From a virus: DNA of 64,000 nucleotides. Under the pieces are notes generated by a model, which searched no databases, was not told the DNA's origin, and saw only the letters and a program-made list of their open reading frames with translations. The first letter of the stretch is position 1, and every line of letters begins with the position of its first letter. Position numbers and translations under genes: made by a program. The stretch is from positions 1-64,000 of IMG/VR virus record IMGVR_UViG_3300024261_000026, one strand, 5' to 3'. Below are positions 34,525 to 64,000 of this stretch, in pieces.

Positions 34525-35700
34525 TTGTTTTATACAATCCTCGACTCAAAAGAAGAGTGCTTAGGATATTATTATGACGGTGGTATCCACGAGCAAAAAC
34601 CAGACACCAGCAAACACTATATAACTTGGGACTACAAGCACCACCACCACCAGGACGGTGCTCAGTATCTGAATTTGTATTGTGGGGGGAAACCTATCTC
34701 TGCCTTTTGCCCGCCCCACTTGCAGAGAGAGTGGGAGATCTCCCAGGAGAAAAAGAAGGCATTCGGTAATGCTATTTCCAACAGCAAGGTAAAGATAGAT
34801 GATGTCTGTATTTATGATCTCATTCCTTTGTGGTTTCTGAGGGAGAACTCTCAGCTGAGATGTGAGATACTCCAAGAGATACACAGTACAAGAGATAGAC
34901 CAAAGTCGTATGATTTTATGCTCGAACTGGAAAAACTCTTTGGGGAGATATCGCAAAATCAACTTAGTGTTGATATTAGTGCGCTCCGTGATAAGAGGGG
35001 CCAGACTGCGGTTAGAAACTTTATCAAGAGGATAAAGGGAAAGACAACGATTAAATATAACCAGTTCGGCACCGTGACTGGAAGACTAACTGTGTCTAGC
35101 GATAGTTTTCCCATTATGAATGTGAATCATTCTTTTCGGAATATCCTAAAACCAAACAACGATCTTTTTGTGGAGTTTGATTATAACGCAGCAGAGTTGA
35201 GAACCCTTCTCGCCCTTTCGGAAAGAGAGCAACCACAAGAAGACATACACGAGTGGAATATTAAAAATGTTTTTAAACGACACATGACAAGGGAAGAGGC
35301 GAAGAAAAAGATATTCGCGGCGATATATAACCCGAACACAAAACAGGATTATTATCAAATAGACAAGGTGCTGGAAAAGCACTACGCCCAAGGTCAAGTC
35401 ACTACTCCCTTTGGCAGAGAGATAGACTGTGACGACGGACACGCTCTAAACTATACACTTCAGAGCACCACCAGCGATTTGGTGCTGGAACAGACCATAA
35501 AGATAAACAAACTCCTGGAGGGCAAGAAATCAAAGATTGTGTTTTTGATTCACGACAGTTTTGTTGTCGATTTGGCACAGGAAGAGCGATCTCTGATTTT
35601 CGAAATCAAGGAAATTTTTTCTCAGAACAGATTTGGAGATTTTTTGGTCAATGTAAGTGCCGGTAGGGACTTTGGCAGCATGAAGGAGATTGCTATATGA
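34525..35700 (+). CDS. polA: Family A DNA polymerase, short form
   Basis: This protein has about 391 residues from TTG 34525, which has GAGGG at 34516-34520 overlapping the previous stop codon. The frame is open further upstream, but only inside the structural gene. Polymerase motifs are all present: a T-motif (TVTGRLTVSSDSFPIMN), motif A DYNAAELR (Asp219), motif B R256-x3-K260-x3-F264-x3-Y268-N, and motif C HDS (343-345). Motif C has Ser where most family A enzymes have Glu. About 200 N-terminal residues do not show exonuclease motifs. A second, family C polymerase is encoded at 46.4 kb, so this enzyme may be accessory (repair or primer removal). Confidence 0.82.
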   Translation: MFYTILDSKEECLGYYYDGGIHEQKPDTSKHYITWDYKHHHHQDGAQYLNLYCGGKPISAFCPPHLQREWEISQEKKKAFGNAISNSKVKIDDVCIYDLIPLWFLRENSQLRCEILQEIHSTRDRPKSYDFMLELEKLFGEISQNQLSVDISALRDKRGQTAVRNFIKRIKGKTTIKYNQFGTVTGRLTVSSDSFPIMNVNHSFRNILKPNNDLFVEFDYNAAELRTLLALSEREQPQEDIHEWNIKNVFKRHMTREEAKKKIFAAIYNPNTKQDYYQIDKVLEKHYAQGQVTTPFGREIDCDDGHALNYTLQSTTSDLVLEQTIKINKLLEGKKSKIVFLIHDSFVVDLAQEERSLIFEIKEIFSQNRFGDFLVNVSAGRDFGSMKEIAI

Positions 35701-36539
35701 TTAACGTAATTGGACTCGGAAATGCGGGATGCGAGATAGCAGAGAGGTTTTCGCAATACCCTCAATACGAGGTATATAAGATAGACGTATCACTCAAGAA
35801 GCAGAAGAATTGTTTTTCTATGCCAAGCAGGAAAGCCGTAGAGGAATATGAAAGCAAGTTCCCGGCGAGGATACTAACATCTCTCAGAAAGATTCAGGGT
35901 GACATCTTGTTCATCGTTGGAGGAGGGGGAGAAGTATCATCAGCATCTCTTAGGATCTTAGAGGCGGTAAGCAAAAATAAGATAGAGGTGCTCTATGTAA
36001 AGCCGGATGAATCTATTGTCTCTGATGACGAAAGACTTCTCGATAAGATATCCTTTGGAGTGTTACAGCAATATGCTCGCTCGGGCCTTTTTGAGAGATT
36101 GTATCTTGTTTCTAATTCTGAGATCCAGAGAACAGTGGGAAATATCCCTATTAGCAAATATTACGATACCCTCAACGAGATCATTTCCTCTACGATCCAT
36201 ATGGTGAATGTATACAGAAACAGCAAGCCGACCATTTCAAGTTTTCCGAAGGAATCTGAGGTTTGCCGTATTTGTACCATAGGAATCGGGGAGATAGAAA
36301 AAATGACAGATCAGATGTATTTTTCTCTTGACAACACGAACGAAAAGAGGTATTATTTCGCTATCAACAAAAAGGAATTAGAAGAAAGCACCACTTTGCT
36401 AGCAAAGATCAAAACGAGGGCGAGGCAGAAGGATAATGACATAAAAGGAGGATTTGGAATATATCCGACAGAGTATAAGAAGAACTACATTTATATCGTC
36501 GAGCAGACGAAGATAATTCAAGGAGAAAATCATGGTTAA
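35697..36539 (+). CDS. Divergent FtsZ/tubulin-like protein
   Basis: This 280-residue protein is coupled to polA by an ATGA overlap. The N-terminus MINVIGLGNAGCEIAERF matches the first nucleotide-binding loop of FtsZ. Residues 69-84 (GDILFIVGGGGEVSSAS) match the FtsZ strand plus tubulin signature loop, although the canonical GGGTGSG is altered. A following EVLYVKPD strand and a LFERLYLVSN strand (Asn140) fit the next FtsZ elements. The C-terminal T7-loop aspartates needed for GTP hydrolysis are not apparent. It may be a filament-forming phage tubulin, or a degenerate regulator that binds host FtsZ. Only fold-level similarity is claimed. Confidence 0.55.
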   Translation: MINVIGLGNAGCEIAERFSQYPQYEVYKIDVSLKKQKNCFSMPSRKAVEEYESKFPARILTSLRKIQGDILFIVGGGGEVSSASLRILEAVSKNKIEVLYVKPDESIVSDDERLLDKISFGVLQQYARSGLFERLYLVSNSEIQRTVGNIPISKYYDTLNEIISSTIHMVNVYRNSKPTISSFPKESEVCRICTIGIGEIEKMTDQMYFSLDNTNEKRYYFAINKKELEESTTLLAKIKTRARQKDNDIKGGFGIYPTEYKKNYIYIVEQTKIIQGENHG

Positions 36540-36816
36540 AGTTTTTACAGGAACTTTTCAGAAAAAGAATAATGATACAAGAAGCATGACATTTGTTAAA
36601 CTAGAAGATCTGCCAAAGGATTTTTTAGGATCAAAAGTCAAGAACGAAAACTCAACACGCACCCTTCCAGAAGGACTGGAGTTGGTGTGGGATATTGACA
36701 GTGCCGGATTTCGCACCTTCAATTGGCAATCTGCCGTAGGCGATGTCAAGGTGGAAATCCTCAAGGGAAAAGAAAAAGACGATTTCGAAACAAAACACTT
36801 GACAGAGCAAAAGTGA
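36532..36816 (+). CDS. Small conserved phage protein, unknown
   Basis: This 94-residue protein begins MVKVFTGTFQKKNNDTRSMT and has a central block EGLELVWDIDSAGFRTFNWQ. It looks like a small beta-rich domain. It overlaps the FtsZ-like gene by eight bases and has AAGGAGAAAA before the ATG. The promoter of the SSB gene overlaps its 3' end. I recall similar small proteins next to replication genes of marine phages, without function. Confidence 0.65.
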   Translation: MVKVFTGTFQKKNNDTRSMTFVKLEDLPKDFLGSKVKNENSTRTLPEGLELVWDIDSAGFRTFNWQSAVGDVKVEILKGKEKDDFETKHLTEQK

Positions 36817-46332: not shown

Positions 46333-46361
46333 TTGACAAGATATGGGTGATCTGCTATAAT
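46333..46361 (+). promoter_or_regulatory. Sigma70-type promoter of DnaE, TGATCTG class
   Basis: TTGACA (46333-46338), a 17-base spacer ending GTGATCTGC and TATAAT (46356-46361). It fits start codon 46396 with a leader of about 28 bases. Confidence 0.85.
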
Positions 46362-51994: not shown

Positions 51995-52474
51995 ATGGAC
52001 AAACACACAAAAAAGGTGATGTTTAGCAGCAAAGATATGAGTTGGGAAACTCCGCAGGATTTCTTCGACAAGCTAGATCGAGATTTTAACTTTGACTTAG
52101 ATCCGTGCGCGACAAAAGAAACTGCGAAGTGTAAGGATTATTACACAGAAGAAGACGATGGGTTATCTAAGGATTGGGGTCCGTGCAAGACAGTCTTCGT
52201 AAACCCCCCTTATGGTAGGGATATCAAAAAGTGGATTAAGAAAGGATACGAAGAGGCGCAGAAGGACAAGACTACTGTCGTGATGCTTATACCAGCAAGA
52301 ACTGACACTTCTTATTGGCACGAATACTGCATGAAGGCATCTCAGATTTTCTTCGTGAAGGGCAGATTAAAGTTTGGTACCGCCACGACTGGCGCTCCAT
52401 TTCCTTCTGCTGTGGTGGTTTTCAAGTGGTATTCGGGAGGTGAAACTCCACAGATGGGTACCATTGACAGATAA
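51995..52474 (+). CDS. DNA N6-adenine methyltransferase, phage Dam type
   Basis: This 159-residue protein has the small phage N6-MTase pattern: SWETPQDFFDKLDRDFNF, then FDLDPCAT (33-40, SAM-related), and the catalytic NPPYGR (70-75). It is only a catalytic core, so it probably recognises a short site. Enzymes of this family often methylate GATC. Several phage promoters carry GATC, so methylation may affect regulation or protect from restriction, which is inference. AGAAAGGACC precedes ATG 51995. Confidence 0.85.
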   Translation: MDKHTKKVMFSSKDMSWETPQDFFDKLDRDFNFDLDPCATKETAKCKDYYTEEDDGLSKDWGPCKTVFVNPPYGRDIKKWIKKGYEEAQKDKTTVVMLIPARTDTSYWHEYCMKASQIFFVKGRLKFGTATTGAPFPSAVVVFKWYSGGETPQMGTIDR

Positions 52475-57481: not shown

Positions 57482-57510
57482 TTGACAACCACATAAGATG
57501 CGAGTATAAT
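57482..57510 (+). promoter_or_regulatory. Sigma70-type promoter of the Mom-like gene
   Basis: TTGACA (57482-57487), a 17-base spacer and TATAAT (57505-57510), all consensus. It lies just after a late gene and drives the Mom-like/GroEL operon. It lacks the TGATCTG element. Confidence 0.85.
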
Positions 57511-57541
57511 AGAACAGATCACTTTATTGATCGGAGGAACA

Positions 57542-58456
57542 ATGTCAGATCCACACAAAAGATGGAAAGACTACGATAAAGAACATTGCTGGCAGTATCA
57601 GATGAGAGAGGATAATCTCGGGGAAGATCTTCAAAATCTCCCTCCGTGGGTTGATTATAGAGAATTATCCACAAAAGATTTCGATTTTGAATATGTGGAC
57701 AAATCGGAAAAAGAGAAGTGCGATGAGATTCGTGATTTTATAAAGAAGCATGAGTGGCTAGGTAAACTACCAAATAGACCTACTCATCGATTTACTGCTC
57801 GCCTCAAGGAAGGAAGCATCCTCGCTGGCGTTATTATTATGGCAGTGCCGAATACATTTTCCCATTTGCTCGGGAAAGAAAACAGCAACCTTGAAAAACT
57901 AATCTCTCGTGGTGCATGCATTAGTTGGTCACCTAAGAATCTTGGATCGTGGCTGATAATGAAGTCTGTCAAGTGGATGGTTCAAAATACCGAGTTTAGG
58001 TATTTCACGGCATACTCCGATCCGGAAGCGAAAGAACTTGGAACGATCTATCAGGCGTGTAATTTCCTTTACCTAGGTAAGGGCGCAGGAGTGACAAAGC
58101 AATACTTTGATCCGAACAATCCCAAACAAGGGTGGTTTAGCGGGAGAGAGTTCAGAAAGAAATCAAAGTATTACAGATACGCCCAGGAGGTAGGCATCAG
58201 CAAGGAGCAATGGGCAAAGTGGATGAAGAAGTATAGCCCAGATTGGAATCTTGTGCCGACAATGGCGAAAAGTATGGTCAAGGAAAGAGAAAGAATATAT
58301 CGAGATAGTTGCCATGTTCGAGAGGTAGTTTCGAAGCACAAATATGTCTATATTCTCGGGAAAAGCAAGAAAGAGACAAAAAAGTTGAAACAAATCTTTA
58401 AAGAAAAGAACCCAAAATTGTATGATATGTCATACCCCGCTCATCGCGGGGAATAA
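57542..58456 (+). CDS. Mom-like GNAT-fold DNA modification protein
   Basis: This is a 304-residue protein from ATG 57542 with GGAGG upstream. The central region reads ILAGVIIMAVPN, then a strand, CISWSPKNLGSWLIMKSVKW, then AYSDPEAKELGTIYQACNF and LYLGKGAG. This order resembles phage Mu Mom, a GNAT-related enzyme that adds a carbamoylmethyl group to adenines and blocks restriction. A basic C-terminal tail (KSKKETKKLKQIF) may bind DNA. It sits in one operon with GroEL. It could also be an ordinary GNAT acetyltransferase. Confidence 0.65.
   Translation: MSDPHKRWKDYDKEHCWQYQMREDNLGEDLQNLPPWVDYRELSTKDFDFEYVDKSEKEKCDEIRDFIKKHEWLGKLPNRPTHRFTARLKEGSILAGVIIMAVPNTFSHLLGKENSNLEKLISRGACISWSPKNLGSWLIMKSVKWMVQNTEFRYFTAYSDPEAKELGTIYQACNFLYLGKGAGVTKQYFDPNNPKQGWFSGREFRKKSKYYRYAQEVGISKEQWAKWMKKYSPDWNLVPTMAKSMVKERERIYRDSCHVREVVSKHKYVYILGKSKKETKKLKQIFKEKNPKLYDMSYPAHRGE
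58435..58451 (+). other. Hairpin at the end of the Mom-like gene
   Basis: A 6-bp GC stem CCCCGC/GCGGGG with loop TCATC includes the last codons of the gene. No T tract follows, so it is probably a processing or stabilising hairpin rather than a terminator, and GroEL is likely co-transcribed. Confidence 0.45.
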
Positions 58457-58467
58457 CTGGAGGAACA

Positions 58468-60039
58468 ATGTCGAAAGAGTATCTCGATACGCAAAAAGGT
58501 CTAAACCAAAAGATATTAGACGGAATAAACAAACTGGCAGATAATGTCGCCGCCACAATGGGACCAAGAGGAAGAAATGTCATCCTCCACCCCAAGAACG
58601 GCAACCCAATAATCACGAAAGATGGAGTAACTGTTGCACGATTTATCGACTTCGATGATCCATTTGAAAACGTGGGTGCACAAGTAATCAAACAAGCGAG
58701 CGAGGAAACCAATGCCAGAGCAGGTGACGGCACCACAACTGCTATTGTCTTGTCGCGAGCAATCTTTGTGGAAGCACAAAAGCACATTGCAGCAGGAGCG
58801 TCCCCGGTTGAACTCAAGAGGGGAATTGATAAGGCGACTGATGTGATAGTCAGTAACCTTAAGACCATCGCGAAGAAGGTGACGAAGCTCGAAGACATTG
58901 AAGACATCGCCACAATATCAGCGAATGGCGACAGAACCATTGGCAAACTTATTTCAACAGCAATAGACATGATAGGAAAGGATGGGTCCATTACTATAGA
59001 GGATGGGAAGTCGCTTGAGACGAGCCTAGACGTCGTAGAAGGGTTTAGATTTGACAGTGGGTATGCCGCAGGTGCATTCGTCACAGACGAGCGTAGAGGC
59101 GTCCTCAAGCACAATGATCCACTATTCCTTATCACTGATGAAAAGATAGAATTTGTTGAAGATATCCTCCCAGTTCTAGAACTAATCGCCAGAGATGGGC
59201 GCCCACTGATTGTGGTAGCAGAAGACATCGAAGGGCAAGCACTCGCTGCAATGATTATGAATGCAGTGAGAGGAACTATGAAGGTCGCGGCAATCAAAGC
59301 ACCTAGGTATGGCGAGGAGCGCCGAGGCATCTTAGAAGACTTAGCTATCAGCGTGGGAGCGACATTTGTTTCTCGCGCATCAGGTCTGAAGATGAAGGAT
59401 GTTAAGTTATCTCACTTGGGTAGCGCGAAGACTGTTGAGGCGTCCAAAGTAATGACAACGATTGTTGGCGGAAAGGGCGATGATGCTTTGGTTGGGGAGC
59501 GCATCGATCTGCTTAAAGCGCAATTTGAACAGACAGACAACATGCAGGTGTGCGAGAGAATTCAGGAGCGCATCACCAGGTTAGCGAGCGGTATCGCCAT
59601 TATTAATGTGGGGGGTAACACCGAGGTTGAGATGGTGGAGAAGAAGCACCGAATCGAGGACGCCCTAGAGGCGGTGAAGTCAGCGCAGCAAGAGGGGATG
59701 GTCTCCGGCGGCGGCATGGCACTGCTTGCTGCATCCAAGAACATAGAGATAGACGCCACGAACGCAGATCAGGAACTAGGAGCGAAGATAATCCTTAAAG
59801 CGGTTGAAGATCCGCTGCGCCAAATGGCTCTGAACGCAGGGAATAAACCAGACGTTATCCTGGAAAAGGCATTCTCGGCAAAAGAAGGGGAAGGGTTTGA
59901 TTTGGCGACAGGCGAGATAGTAAATCTGATGGAGAAGGGTATTATAGATCCGGTAAAAGTAACTAGGTGTGCCCTTCAGAACGCCGCATCGGCAATCGGG
60001 ACGCTAATTACTACCAGTCATGCAATTATAGATAAATAG
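58468..60039 (+). CDS. groEL: GroEL-like chaperonin
   Basis: This 523-residue protein has the Hsp60 layout: MGPRGRNVIL, ITKDGVTVAR, the ATP-site GDGTTT (86-91, Asp87 equivalent to E. coli), an intermediate domain, VSGGGMALLAA, and the C-terminal block VKVTRCALQNAASAIGTLIT. The usual GGM-rich tail is absent, and the protein is slightly shorter than E. coli GroEL (548). It should form the folding chamber with the GroES-like protein at 43.6 kb and may fold gp23. GGAGG precedes ATG 58468. Confidence 0.92.
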   Translation: MSKEYLDTQKGLNQKILDGINKLADNVAATMGPRGRNVILHPKNGNPIITKDGVTVARFIDFDDPFENVGAQVIKQASEETNARAGDGTTTAIVLSRAIFVEAQKHIAAGASPVELKRGIDKATDVIVSNLKTIAKKVTKLEDIEDIATISANGDRTIGKLISTAIDMIGKDGSITIEDGKSLETSLDVVEGFRFDSGYAAGAFVTDERRGVLKHNDPLFLITDEKIEFVEDILPVLELIARDGRPLIVVAEDIEGQALAAMIMNAVRGTMKVAAIKAPRYGEERRGILEDLAISVGATFVSRASGLKMKDVKLSHLGSAKTVEASKVMTTIVGGKGDDALVGERIDLLKAQFEQTDNMQVCERIQERITRLASGIAIINVGGNTEVEMVEKKHRIEDALEAVKSAQQEGMVSGGGMALLAASKNIEIDATNADQELGAKIILKAVEDPLRQMALNAGNKPDVILEKAFSAKEGEGFDLATGEIVNLMEKGIIDPVKVTRCALQNAASAIGTLITTSHAIIDK

Positions 60040-60352: not shown

Positions 60353-60381
60353 TTGACAGGCGAAAAGTAATGTGCTATACT
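60353..60381 (+). promoter_or_regulatory. Sigma70-type promoter after the holin candidate
   Basis: TTGACA (60353-60358), a 17-base spacer ending TGTGC and TATACT (60376-60381). It has an extended -10 TG but not TGATCTG. It drives the small-gene operon at 60.4-61.9 kb. Confidence 0.8.
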
Positions 60382-61490: not shown

Positions 61491-61880
61491 ATGGAAATTT
61501 CGTGCAAGTGGAAACCGATTGATGAATATATTCTAGCAGATAGCGGAGAAAAAAAGGAAGGCAGGTATCACGGGTCGATGTTCTGGAATATTAAAGGATT
61601 CGGGAGTAAGCGATGGGTTGTTGCAGGTTACCTAGATGTGCCCGACTGTCAACAATATTTGGATGAGGGCATCTCAGAGAGGGAAATGGTGGAGTGTTGC
61701 TTGGCCCACCTAAATCAACCTCCCCCCAGAAGGAAATTCCAAAGAAAGCAGCCAAACTCTCTATATGGGCATTTGGAATATTACAAGCACAAGATCACGC
61801 CAGATGGTATTGAAGTTCTGGTGATCACAAATGAAAGAAAGAATAGTCGGTTTTGGTCAGAAGGCACCGCAATTTCATAG
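61491..61880 (+). CDS. Unknown protein with basic middle segment
   Basis: This 129-residue protein starts MEISCKWKPIDEYILADSGE, has a central CQQYLDEG and a proline/arginine-rich stretch PPPRRKFQRKQ. It may bind nucleic acid through the basic stretch. Last gene of the small-gene operon. No family is recognised. Confidence 0.6.
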   Translation: MEISCKWKPIDEYILADSGEKKEGRYHGSMFWNIKGFGSKRWVVAGYLDVPDCQQYLDEGISEREMVECCLAHLNQPPPRRKFQRKQPNSLYGHLEYYKHKITPDGIEVLVITNERKNSRFWSEGTAIS

Positions 61881-61905: not shown

Positions 61906-61934
61906 TTGACAGATTAAATGTGATCTGTTATAAT
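61906..61934 (+). promoter_or_regulatory. Sigma70-type promoter of the GHKL-nuclease gene, TGATCTG class
   Basis: TTGACA (61906-61911), a 17-base spacer ending GTGATCTGT and TATAAT (61929-61934), a full consensus with extended -10. GTGATCTGTT is repeated directly downstream at 61935-61944 as part of a palindrome. Confidence 0.88.
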
Positions 61935-61936
61935 GT

Positions 61937-61952
61937 GATCTGTTGGCAGATC
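61937..61952 (+). promoter_or_regulatory. Palindromic operator-like site at the start point
   Basis: The inverted repeat GATCTG-TTGG-CAGATC begins two bases after the -10. It overlaps the expected transcription start, where a repressor would block initiation. It holds two GATC sites, as does the promoter upstream. In the transcript it would form a hairpin of 6 bp. Confidence 0.6.
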
Positions 61953-61978
61953 AACAAGAGAGAAAGAAGGAGTAGCAT

Positions 61979-63895
61979 ATGAAAAGGGCGATGTCATACA
62001 AGTCTTGCCGAAGCCGCGTCGCTGGCGGGAGCACTAAAAGCGCTATAAAGGAGGCGTGGGCAAATGTTCATGCGGCGGCACATAAATTCGGTGTCCGTGC
62101 TCCTGTTATGGAATTCGGTCTTTTTTTGGAGACCGATGACAACACCGAACAAATTTCGGTATACGCTTTAAAGATCTCGGATAACGTCGGAGGCGTTGCT
62201 GGTCAGAAAGGTCGTGATTGTTTGCACAAAATGGGAAAAACAGGAACACACCAAATCGAACTCACGTCTGAGCATGGGAAGGGTACTTCCTATATATTTC
62301 CTCAATATATCAAGGCGGAATTAGAGAAATATCAGGAAAAGATCCACTTTGCGACCACTTTTGTGCCAGATAGAGAATCCGGACGTGTTTTTGCGACCGA
62401 TTATAGTACCAATCCAGGCGCGGATGATGTATGGGACGACGAGGAAATGACTAAAGAGGAGGCAGAACGGCGTCTCTCTGAATTGTGTCGCCTCGAAGGT
62501 CAAGGTCCACCAAACCCTATTCAGGGGATGGTTTATTTGTGGAAAGATCCATATTTACCGGAGATCACATCACCACTCACCAAGTGTAAACCTAAAAACA
62601 TTAAGAATGTAGTGAAAACTGCGATGAATAAACTCTTGCAGCAGATTTGCTCTATCACTCCTTTTTATGATGAATTCTTAGACGCCACCAATGCCGCCGC
62701 AGGACTCTATGGGTGGTCTCCGATTGATTCTATTGAGACTCGGGTAACTGTTCGTTTAGATGGCGAGGAGATCTTTGCAGAAGGAACTATTGACGCCCAC
62801 AGGCAAGGCGCGGGCGCCCATCCAGTGAGAGATATAACGAAATCAGGCGCCTTCGTCATAGGGGAACCCCCATCACCATCACGAAAACTGGGAGCATATA
62901 GTAGTGGACCGTTTGTTCCAATCGGCGAAAAAGGCACAGGCACCACAGCGCGACTCATTTATGGAGAGTCTCTTCCTGCAACGTGCAACGATACAACCAA
63001 CATCGCCGCCCAGCGGAAACTAGACTATGGGTCAATCGAACACCAGTGGAATGAAAATGCGAAAGTGAATGGTTTCACCAACGACCTCCTGTTGGGCGGA
63101 AAAACATCCCGAGCCTCGCACCTGCTTTCAGTAGTGGTCAATGGTGTTGAGATCGCCAAAGAAGACATCTTTTCTAGAGATGACATAGGTTTGCTCTATA
63201 CCCTTCGCGCAAAGGATGCCACTCAATTGTATCGTTTCAATCGGGCAGTGACGATTCTTGACGTGAGGACCAAAAAGAAGGGTGTTAACCCCTTCCCCAC
63301 TTGCGGTCACAAGATCAGTCTTGAGAGCCCAATGTCGGCGGATATCATCACTGAGGTGCTGGAGACTTTCTCCAGAGAAGGAGAAGAAAATGCATTTGTC
63401 AAACACGTCAAAGCAGTCCGCTCCAACAAAGAAGAAGGTGCGCATGAAGTAGATGATGTGCATCCTGCGTTTCAAGAGGTTGCGGAGAACACGCAGGATG
63501 GGGATAAGTGGTCTTTTGAAGTTGCACCTCCCGCCGAGGGCAAGCACCTACTTTGGGGAAATGGCGTCCCGGCAGTGGATGCCTTCCACCCTAGTCGTGG
63601 ATTCGTGGAATTAAAGACGGGACACCTGACTTGGATTAACACCATCGACCAAGCTCTGAGATACGGGATTCCCATCTTGGAAGAAGGTAAACACGATCTT
63701 ACTTTTGTTTCGGAGACTGTGGAATCCGGTTTGCAGGAAAAGATAGACCACATTACAGCACCATGGAGTACGGAAACAAAAACACAAGTCCGTGTACTGA
63801 CCTATGAACAATTCGATAAGTTTATGTGTGATGTCATATCGATGAAGTTAAAAGAGAAAGGTATAGTCTTCCCCAGATCCCGAGAAATAACATAA
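61979..63895 (+). CDS. Predicted GHKL ATPase fused to a PD-(D/E)XK nuclease
   Basis: This is a 638-residue protein. Residues 20-35 hold E25-x3-N29, the GHKL N-box that positions ATP and magnesium. Residues 66-73 (ISDNVGGV) match the D-x-G-x-G box, with one glycine shifted. Residues 83-100 (HKMGKTGTHQIELTS, GKGTS) fit the third glycine-rich box. A long central region (200-520) may be the transducer. Near the C-terminus D534-x9-E544-L-K546 and Q558 with LRYG match a PD-(D/E)XK nuclease core. The design recalls MutL- or MORC-like ATPases with a nuclease. It has a strong promoter with a palindromic site. It may attack host DNA or defend against other phages. Confidence 0.6.
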   Translation: MKRAMSYKSCRSRVAGGSTKSAIKEAWANVHAAAHKFGVRAPVMEFGLFLETDDNTEQISVYALKISDNVGGVAGQKGRDCLHKMGKTGTHQIELTSEHGKGTSYIFPQYIKAELEKYQEKIHFATTFVPDRESGRVFATDYSTNPGADDVWDDEEMTKEEAERRLSELCRLEGQGPPNPIQGMVYLWKDPYLPEITSPLTKCKPKNIKNVVKTAMNKLLQQICSITPFYDEFLDATNAAAGLYGWSPIDSIETRVTVRLDGEEIFAEGTIDAHRQGAGAHPVRDITKSGAFVIGEPPSPSRKLGAYSSGPFVPIGEKGTGTTARLIYGESLPATCNDTTNIAAQRKLDYGSIEHQWNENAKVNGFTNDLLLGGKTSRASHLLSVVVNGVEIAKEDIFSRDDIGLLYTLRAKDATQLYRFNRAVTILDVRTKKKGVNPFPTCGHKISLESPMSADIITEVLETFSREGEENAFVKHVKAVRSNKEEGAHEVDDVHPAFQEVAENTQDGDKWSFEVAPPAEGKHLLWGNGVPAVDAFHPSRGFVELKTGHLTWINTIDQALRYGIPILEEGKHDLTFVSETVESGLQEKIDHITAPWSTETKTQVRVLTYEQFDKFMCDVISMKLKEKGIVFPRSREIT

Positions 63896-63918
63896 GAGGG
63901 GGGCAGCCCCCTCTTATG
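63891..63918 (+). terminator. Very strong hairpin after the GHKL-nuclease gene
   Basis: A perfect 12-bp stem CATAAGAGGGGG/CCCCCTCTTATG with loop GCAG begins just before the stop codon. No T tract follows directly (GGTTATC), so it may act as a transcript-stabilising or processing hairpin for the downstream tRNA, or as an atypical terminator. Confidence 0.6.
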
Positions 63919-63945
63919 GGTTATCAATCTTGTTGAGCATTTTTT

Positions 63946-64000
63946 GGACTTGTAGCTCAGCGGTAGAGCGACCCGCTCATAACGGGTTGGCCGTAGGTTC
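63946..64000 (+). tRNA. tRNA with CAU anticodon (Met or Ile2), truncated by the window edge
   Basis: The 5' acceptor strand GGACTTG is followed by TA, a D-arm (GCTC-AGCGGTA-GAGC) and a 5-bp anticodon stem ACCCG/CGGGT with loop CTCATAA, so the anticodon is CAT. The T-arm starts GTAGGTTC and the 3' part lies outside the window. CAU could read AUG, or AUA if the C is modified to lysidine. It may be the first of a tRNA cluster. Confidence 0.85.

Follow-up and report, generated by a model that had tools for sequence, protein, structure and literature searches.

Introduction

Fusions of a GHKL domain to a nuclease are known as bacterial anti-phage proteins. In paraMORC3, described by Iyer, Abhiman and Aravind in 2008, a GHKL domain, an S5 domain and a nuclease of the RE fold are joined in one chain (PMC2292703). 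VcSduA, reported in 2025, blocks phages, has a GHKL-nuclease architecture and is classed as Shedu type I-D; the substitutions E27A and K557A each abolish its defence, and control of the nuclease by the ATPase half is still a hypothesis (PMC12137116). Among phage proteins, the rIIA orthologs of big phages carry GHKL at the N terminus and a variable domain at the C terminus (PMC7824862).

Here we report the gene of P0001, a protein encoded by a marine T4-like phage, with its motifs and how they are conserved, the site where it is inserted and the promoter in front of it, and propose a function for it. A first-pass annotation of the sequence had read P0001 as an undescribed fusion of a GHKL ATPase to a nuclease, a novelty that does not stand because the same domain order is already present in paraMORC3 (PMC2292703) and VcSduA (PMC12137116). 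P0001 is a divergent phage-borne version of this known layout and not a new kind of system, and with its ATP lid almost absent such a version would test the need for ATP turnover.

Results and discussion

The phage and its gene for P0001

The window analysed here is a stretch of 64,000 nucleotides from an IMG/VR record, a virus fragment of 65.9 kb. The phage is a distant relative of T4, and many IMG/VR contigs encode matches to its major capsid protein. Its nearest isolates, at about 38-42% identity, are Flavobacterium immuto phages, Microcystis phage Mel-JY01 and Rhodothermus RM378. It also encodes a gp32-like SSB, a RecA-like protein, a PHP-type DnaE, GroEL and Hsp20. The genes for GroEL (58468-60039) and Hsp20 (4118-4540 of L002) flank the region of interest, and groEL was found in 6 of the 10 related phage records searched.

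Two further proteins of this phage are recorded here as side observations. The first, a 280-aa protein encoded at 35697-36539, starts MINVIGLGNAGCEI, has GGGGEVSSAS further in and by eye recalls FtsZ/tubulin-like GTPases; it had no match in Pfam or PHROGs. The second, encoded at 4903-5907 of L002 (window coordinates 64902 onward), looks secreted and carries metal-binding repeats of the MopE type (Cu-binding_MopE, 5e-30); it is conserved in several relatives, is unusual for a phage and is a possible clue to the host.

The features of the P0001 locus are collected in Table 1. E25 and N29 are present in the protein, residues 66-73 read ISDNVGGV, residues 83-100 read HKMGKTGTHQIELTSEHG, and D534, E544-L-K546 and Q558 sit where the first-pass annotation had placed them. 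Every residue named there was found as described and is kept in the sole homolog, and Y562, which was absent from it, completes a Q-x3-Y motif. Among the 25 ORFs of at least 300 aa in the window, P0001 is the only match to either of two loose motif strings, one written for each end of the protein.

Table 1. Positions of the gene, its motifs and the surrounding signals, in window coordinates.
Feature	Coordinates	Strand	Remarks
ORF with putative GHKL-like domain and, C-terminal to it, PD-(D/E)XK nuclease (P0001)	61979..63895	+	ATG start, 638 aa
Predicted helix with N-box E25-x3-N29 (KEAWAN), residues 19-36	62033..62086	+	
D-box-like ISDNVGGV, residues 66-73, after predicted strand	62174..62197	+	
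G-rich segment, residues 75-108: short helix, then beta-hairpin QIELTSEHGKGTSYIF	62201..62302	+	HATPase_c profile alignment of 92-108
Nuclease core motif D534-x9-E544-L-K546-T-G-x9-Q558-x3-Y562	63578..63664	+	
Sigma-70-like promoter, perfect TTGACA-N17-TATAAT, GTGATCTGT ahead of -10	61906..61934	+	homologous to empty-site tRNA-Met promoter
Inserted cassette (leader, gene and 3' hairpin), approximate extent	61936..63945	+	comparison with empty sites L089, L090
12-bp hairpin directly after stop codon, also in homolog	63891..63918	+	z -3.7
tRNA-Met(CAT) gene, 5' part; runs beyond window to ~64020	63946..64000	+	L002 3947-4021

A probable PD-(D/E)XK nuclease in the C-terminal part

The C-terminal part of P0001 carries the hallmark of PD-(D/E)XK nucleases, a D...[DE]xK core with a later conserved glutamine or helix residue, as D534-x9-ELK546 followed by Q558-x3-Y562. 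A loose form of this string arose in 266 of 20,000 shuffled versions of P0001, and the exact string D-x9-E[VIL]KTG-x9-Q-x3-Y in 0 of 20,000. A search for the spacing in 85,000 species genomes, with the position of L545 opened to residues whose codons have T at the second base, returned 40 stretches, about half of which are small PD-(D/E)XK proteins as judged by eye, and 7 of the 7 matches tested hit PDDEXK_3 (PF13366) with E-values of 1.2e-23 or better. The motif spacing therefore points strongly to the fold. The small PDDEXK_3 nucleases share the spacing D-x9-E-[LIV]-K-T-G-x9-Q-x3-Y identically with P0001; they are mostly single-domain proteins of 120-140 aa, whereas P0001 has 638 aa and no Pfam match to PF13366.

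The AlphaFold model of this part is poor, and the strands predicted around D534 and E544 (533-537 and 542-545) have a pLDDT of only about 35-55. Its elements follow the order strand (D534)-strand (E544)-helix (Q558)-strand-helix-strand-helix, which is that of the superfamily core. Taken together, the spacing, the shuffles, the conservation in the homolog and the predicted element order bear out the first-pass assignment of a nuclease, and we strongly infer a PD-(D/E)XK fold here. An hhalign match to a PDDEXK_3 profile was dropped as independent evidence; the similarity was gone once the motif letters were masked, and the match was partly circular because the compared sequences had been picked by motif.

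A GHKL-like N-terminal half

The predicted elements of the N-terminal part are helix 19-36, which holds the N-box E(x3)N as KE25AWAN29, strands 48-52 and 59-62, the D-box, helix 76-84, and strands 93-96 and 103-106; this order of helix-strand-strand-D-box-helix-strand-strand is that of the Bergerat fold. The D-box reads DNVGG and comes after a predicted strand, with the aspartate and the glycines present and shifted by one relative to DxGxG. The hairpin QIELTSEHGKGTSYIF looks like the last hairpin of histidine kinases (HATPase_c). The ATP lid and second G-box of GHKL proteins are not in evidence, as D68 and G86 lie only 18 residues apart and there is no canonical GxxGxG; with the lid nearly gone, ATP hydrolysis may be lost.

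Residues 18-76 aligned with a HATPase_c_3 profile of 30 sequences, with N-box on N-box and D-box on D-box in register (P 0.035), and residues 92-108 with a HATPase_c profile of 24 sequences, with the closing hairpin in register (P 0.0065). In 200 column shuffles the first of these scores fell at about the 95th percentile and the second between the 95th and 99th. Each of the controls (MutL, HtpG, GyrB, T4 rIIA, EnvZ and a paraMORC3) scored 1e-6 or better against one or both profiles, and P0001 falls short of this level of known members. In a shuffle test against HtpG, both P0001 and its homolog gave p 0.013, a value comparable to that of MutL and rIIA, a known pair (0.023). AlphaFold models reached a pLDDT of 32.8 for full-length P0001 and 35.7 for residues 1-277 with a two-row alignment, and Foldseek searches with both models returned noise. 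In the AlphaFold and Foldseek check that had been proposed for both ends of the protein, the element order fits both folds, and the low pLDDT and the Foldseek noise stand on the other side.

These data leave room for a protein whose nuclease is real and whose N-terminal half is not GHKL, carrying either coincidental motifs or a regulatory domain of an unrelated alpha/beta type. Profile and pairwise scores that barely exceed chance or merely equal it, a non-canonical D-box and the missing lid point in that direction, as do a loose N-terminal motif string that occurs in 71 of 20,000 shuffles of P0001 (0.36%) and AlphaFold runs that gave no confident model. Against it, three motif blocks stand in the right order, in the right predicted secondary structure and in exact register, and are invariant in the homolog, and we consider this reading somewhat unlikely. 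The GHKL ATPase of the first-pass annotation is consistent with the order of motifs and of predicted secondary structure and is weakened by the marginal profile scores and by a lid segment that is nearly missing. We judge a GHKL fold at the N terminus of P0001 probable, and ATP hydrolysis by the protein less so.

A single homolog under purifying selection

One full-length homolog, 63-64% identical to P0001, is encoded in IMGVR_UViG_3300025282_000084 (G051; L098/L099). Finding it took a degenerate DNA pattern for D-x9-ELKTG-x9-Q-x3-Y; of the three places in viral contigs that fit this pattern, one was a true homolog. Identical in the two proteins are V14-A-G-G, K24-E25-A-W-A-N29, D68-N-V-G-G-V and E98-H-G-K-G-T-S-Y at one end, and D534, E544-L-K546-T-G, Q558 and Y562 at the other, and conservation is strong along the whole chain, the nuclease part included. 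The ratio dN/dS is about 0.43 (0.28/0.65), indicating purifying selection on the gene. The homolog lies in the corresponding slot, flanked by the same neighbours, and is less conserved (63%) than most of them (70-90%), the exceptions being some small or low-complexity ORFs. The family is thus sampled by two sequences, and the phage records are fragments.

The same homolog was the only match when viral contigs were searched with exact peptide words (from whole P0001, from both ends and from the two-row alignment), when 50 related viral records were compared with P0001, and when 27 records, five reference phages among them, were compared with the two-row alignment; a D-box pattern search found it again and nothing further. 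No homolog appeared in genome contigs by peptide-word search with P0001 or in phages and plasmids by tblastn (E up to 10 and 1), and a search for further syntenic loci with the neighbour gene at 61491-61880 found no relatives. Compared with Pfam, PHROGs, NCBIfam, PADLOC and PDB, P0001 gave no match to GHKL, SduA_C or any other family.

Insertion between a tRNA gene and its promoter

In the relatives G002 and G003, the conserved gene corresponding to 61491-61880 is followed by a promoter and tRNA-Met(CAT) with no ORF between them, a clean empty site; in one relative, G051, the site is filled. An alignment of the four flanks shows homology between the promoter of the occupied sites and the one that serves the tRNA gene at the empty sites, and homology restarts at the start of the tRNA gene, so that about 2.0 kb (roughly 61936-63945) sits between the tRNA gene and its own promoter. 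In G004 and G006, neither the P0001 gene nor the tRNA was found at the locus. The simplest reading of these presence/absence data is that the gene was gained in the lineage of this phage (G000) and G051. GC, GC3 and codon use of the gene are ordinary for the phage, suggesting that the insertion is old or that the donor genome was similar. The tRNA-Met gene overlaps the end of the window and was missed by a tRNA scan of the window only; the Hsp20 gene comes next. The hairpin downstream of the stop codon possibly forms the 3' end of the transcript or a processing signal.

The P0001 gene is an accessory insert at this promoter/tRNA-Met slot, which is the new aspect of the case, and judging from the flank alignment its promoter is the inherited promoter of the tRNA. 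A phage may thus gain a gene without building a promoter for it, when the gene comes to lie between a tRNA gene and the promoter already in place. The first-pass annotation had assigned this promoter to the class serving SSB and DnaE, and the assignment is correct: the spacer end GTGATCTG[T/C] is common to the promoter at 61906, to that at 36799, 32 bp before the gp32-like SSB gene, and to that at 46333, 17 bp before dnaE. A weaker member of the GTGATCTG[T/C]TATAAT promoters lies at 60353. These promoters are possibly an early-promoter class of the phage.

Proposed function and alternatives

An accessory insert behind an early-type promoter is a reasonable location for a phage effector, as P0001 had been called; the data do not support a choice among the roles offered with that name, namely host degradation, exclusion of rivals and recombination. 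With a probability of about 0.42, we propose that P0001 is an accessory nuclease with a GHKL-type switch, directed against rival-phage or host DNA that does not carry the modification of this phage. P0001 would be an accessory (moron-type) protein with a GHKL-like domain at the N terminus, a PD-(D/E)XK DNase at the C terminus and a middle segment between them, made early from a host-type promoter. It would dimerise or close on DNA in an ATP-dependent manner, and closure would license the C-terminal domain to cut foreign DNA of a competing phage or of the host, while the phage's own modified DNA would be spared. If true, a virulent-type phage would wield a defence-like nuclease on competitors or host.

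ATP gating and the DNA target are suggested by analogy, as is self-protection, which may be provided by two enzymes of the phage. A Mom-like DNA-modification protein is encoded at 57527-58456 (Pfam Mom, 3e-12; PHROG Mom-like, 2e-17) behind a perfect TTGACA-N17-TATAAT promoter of its own at 57482, and a Dam-like DNA methyltransferase at 51995-52474 (PF05869, 1.5e-32), near groEL in six related contigs too. The Mom-like gene lies beside groEL in G000 and G051 and elsewhere in G003, and was not found in the fragments G002 and G004. Mom is present in 2 of the 2 phages with the P0001 gene and in at least one without it, an empty-site relative, a co-occurrence too sparse for us to claim linkage to P0001; the suggested tie between P0001 and modification is drawn solely from gene content. 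In a bolder version, P0001 would represent a new family of weapons against rival or host DNA, each a single phage-encoded protein, captured here between the tRNA gene and its promoter, with a lid-less GHKL switch, a nuclease and Mom-type self-protection giving a virulent T4-like phage its own Shedu/paraMORC-like system; this version appears unlikely to us.

The promoter class common to SSB and DnaE would also suit a DNase of host takeover that degrades host DNA to feed early replication, from which the DNA-modifying enzymes could shield the phage's own DNA. However, the gene is missing from close relatives, which marks P0001 as dispensable, and known lytic T4-like phages have no homolog by tblastn, making this role distinctly unlikely. 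The clean pair of filled and empty sites at a tRNA gene could instead reflect a selfish endonuclease of the homing type, which would spread through cleavage of the unoccupied promoter/tRNA-Met site, and there are known homing enzymes with a PD-(D/E)XK fold at tRNA genes (I-Ssp6803I); but a chain of 638 aa with a GHKL-like half far exceeds known homing enzymes in size, and its strong conservation extends over the whole chain, beyond the nuclease, and we regard homing as improbable. That P0001 is a highly divergent T4 rIIA-type protein, with a GHKL and a variable C-terminal domain, serving in counter-defence is suggested by the T4-like source phage and is very improbable, given that P0001 has no similarity to T4 rIIA (p 0.99 and 0.27), that its gene is an accessory insert and that, to our knowledge, rIIA has no nuclease motif.

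Comparison with known systems

The proposed GHKL-switched nuclease resembles paraMORC3 in order and size, the latter being laterally mobile proteins of about 650 aa with an N-terminal GHKL domain, a middle domain (S5) and a C-terminal nuclease of the RE-fold/RecB type. Two predicted strands of P0001 within 251-272 may hint at an S5 domain. The two differ in the D-box, which is DNVGG in P0001 and not DxGxG, in the distance from D-box to G-box, which is about 18 residues in P0001 and holds a full ATP lid in paraMORC3, and in the nuclease motif, which is ELKTG in P0001 and ELKRP or EMKRP in paraMORC3. A 659-aa protein of the paraMORC3 type from a bacterial genome (L163) scored above the Pfam cut-off for HATPase_c_3 and just below it for SduA_C; PADLOC models match this protein and not P0001, which showed no pairwise or profile similarity to paraMORC3 members. 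A z of 5.0 between the nuclease part of P0001 and L174 was dismissed, as the C-terminal part of L174 is unlike the paraMORC3 nuclease and the homolog gave p = 0.067. Phage carriage is not unique to P0001, since a P2-like coliphage has an annotated paraMORC3 beside a Dcm gene.

VcSduA combines GHKL with PD-(D/E)XK, as P0001 probably does, and its essential E27 and K557 compare with E25 and K546 of P0001. It is a single-gene anti-phage system with an SduA_C domain (DUF4263), whereas P0001 is phage-borne and has no Pfam match to SduA_C / DUF4263 (PF14082), and membership of P0001 in Shedu was rejected. Alignment by hhalign with SduA_C sequences gave P 0.04-0.06 from short in-register matches at Q558-Y562 and the last strand, near the 95th percentile of shuffles. 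T4 rIIA is a phage-encoded protein of GHKL type, as P0001 probably is, and differs from it in having no sequence similarity. By analogy P0001, which we class as a member of neither group, may work as paraMORC3 and VcSduA do.
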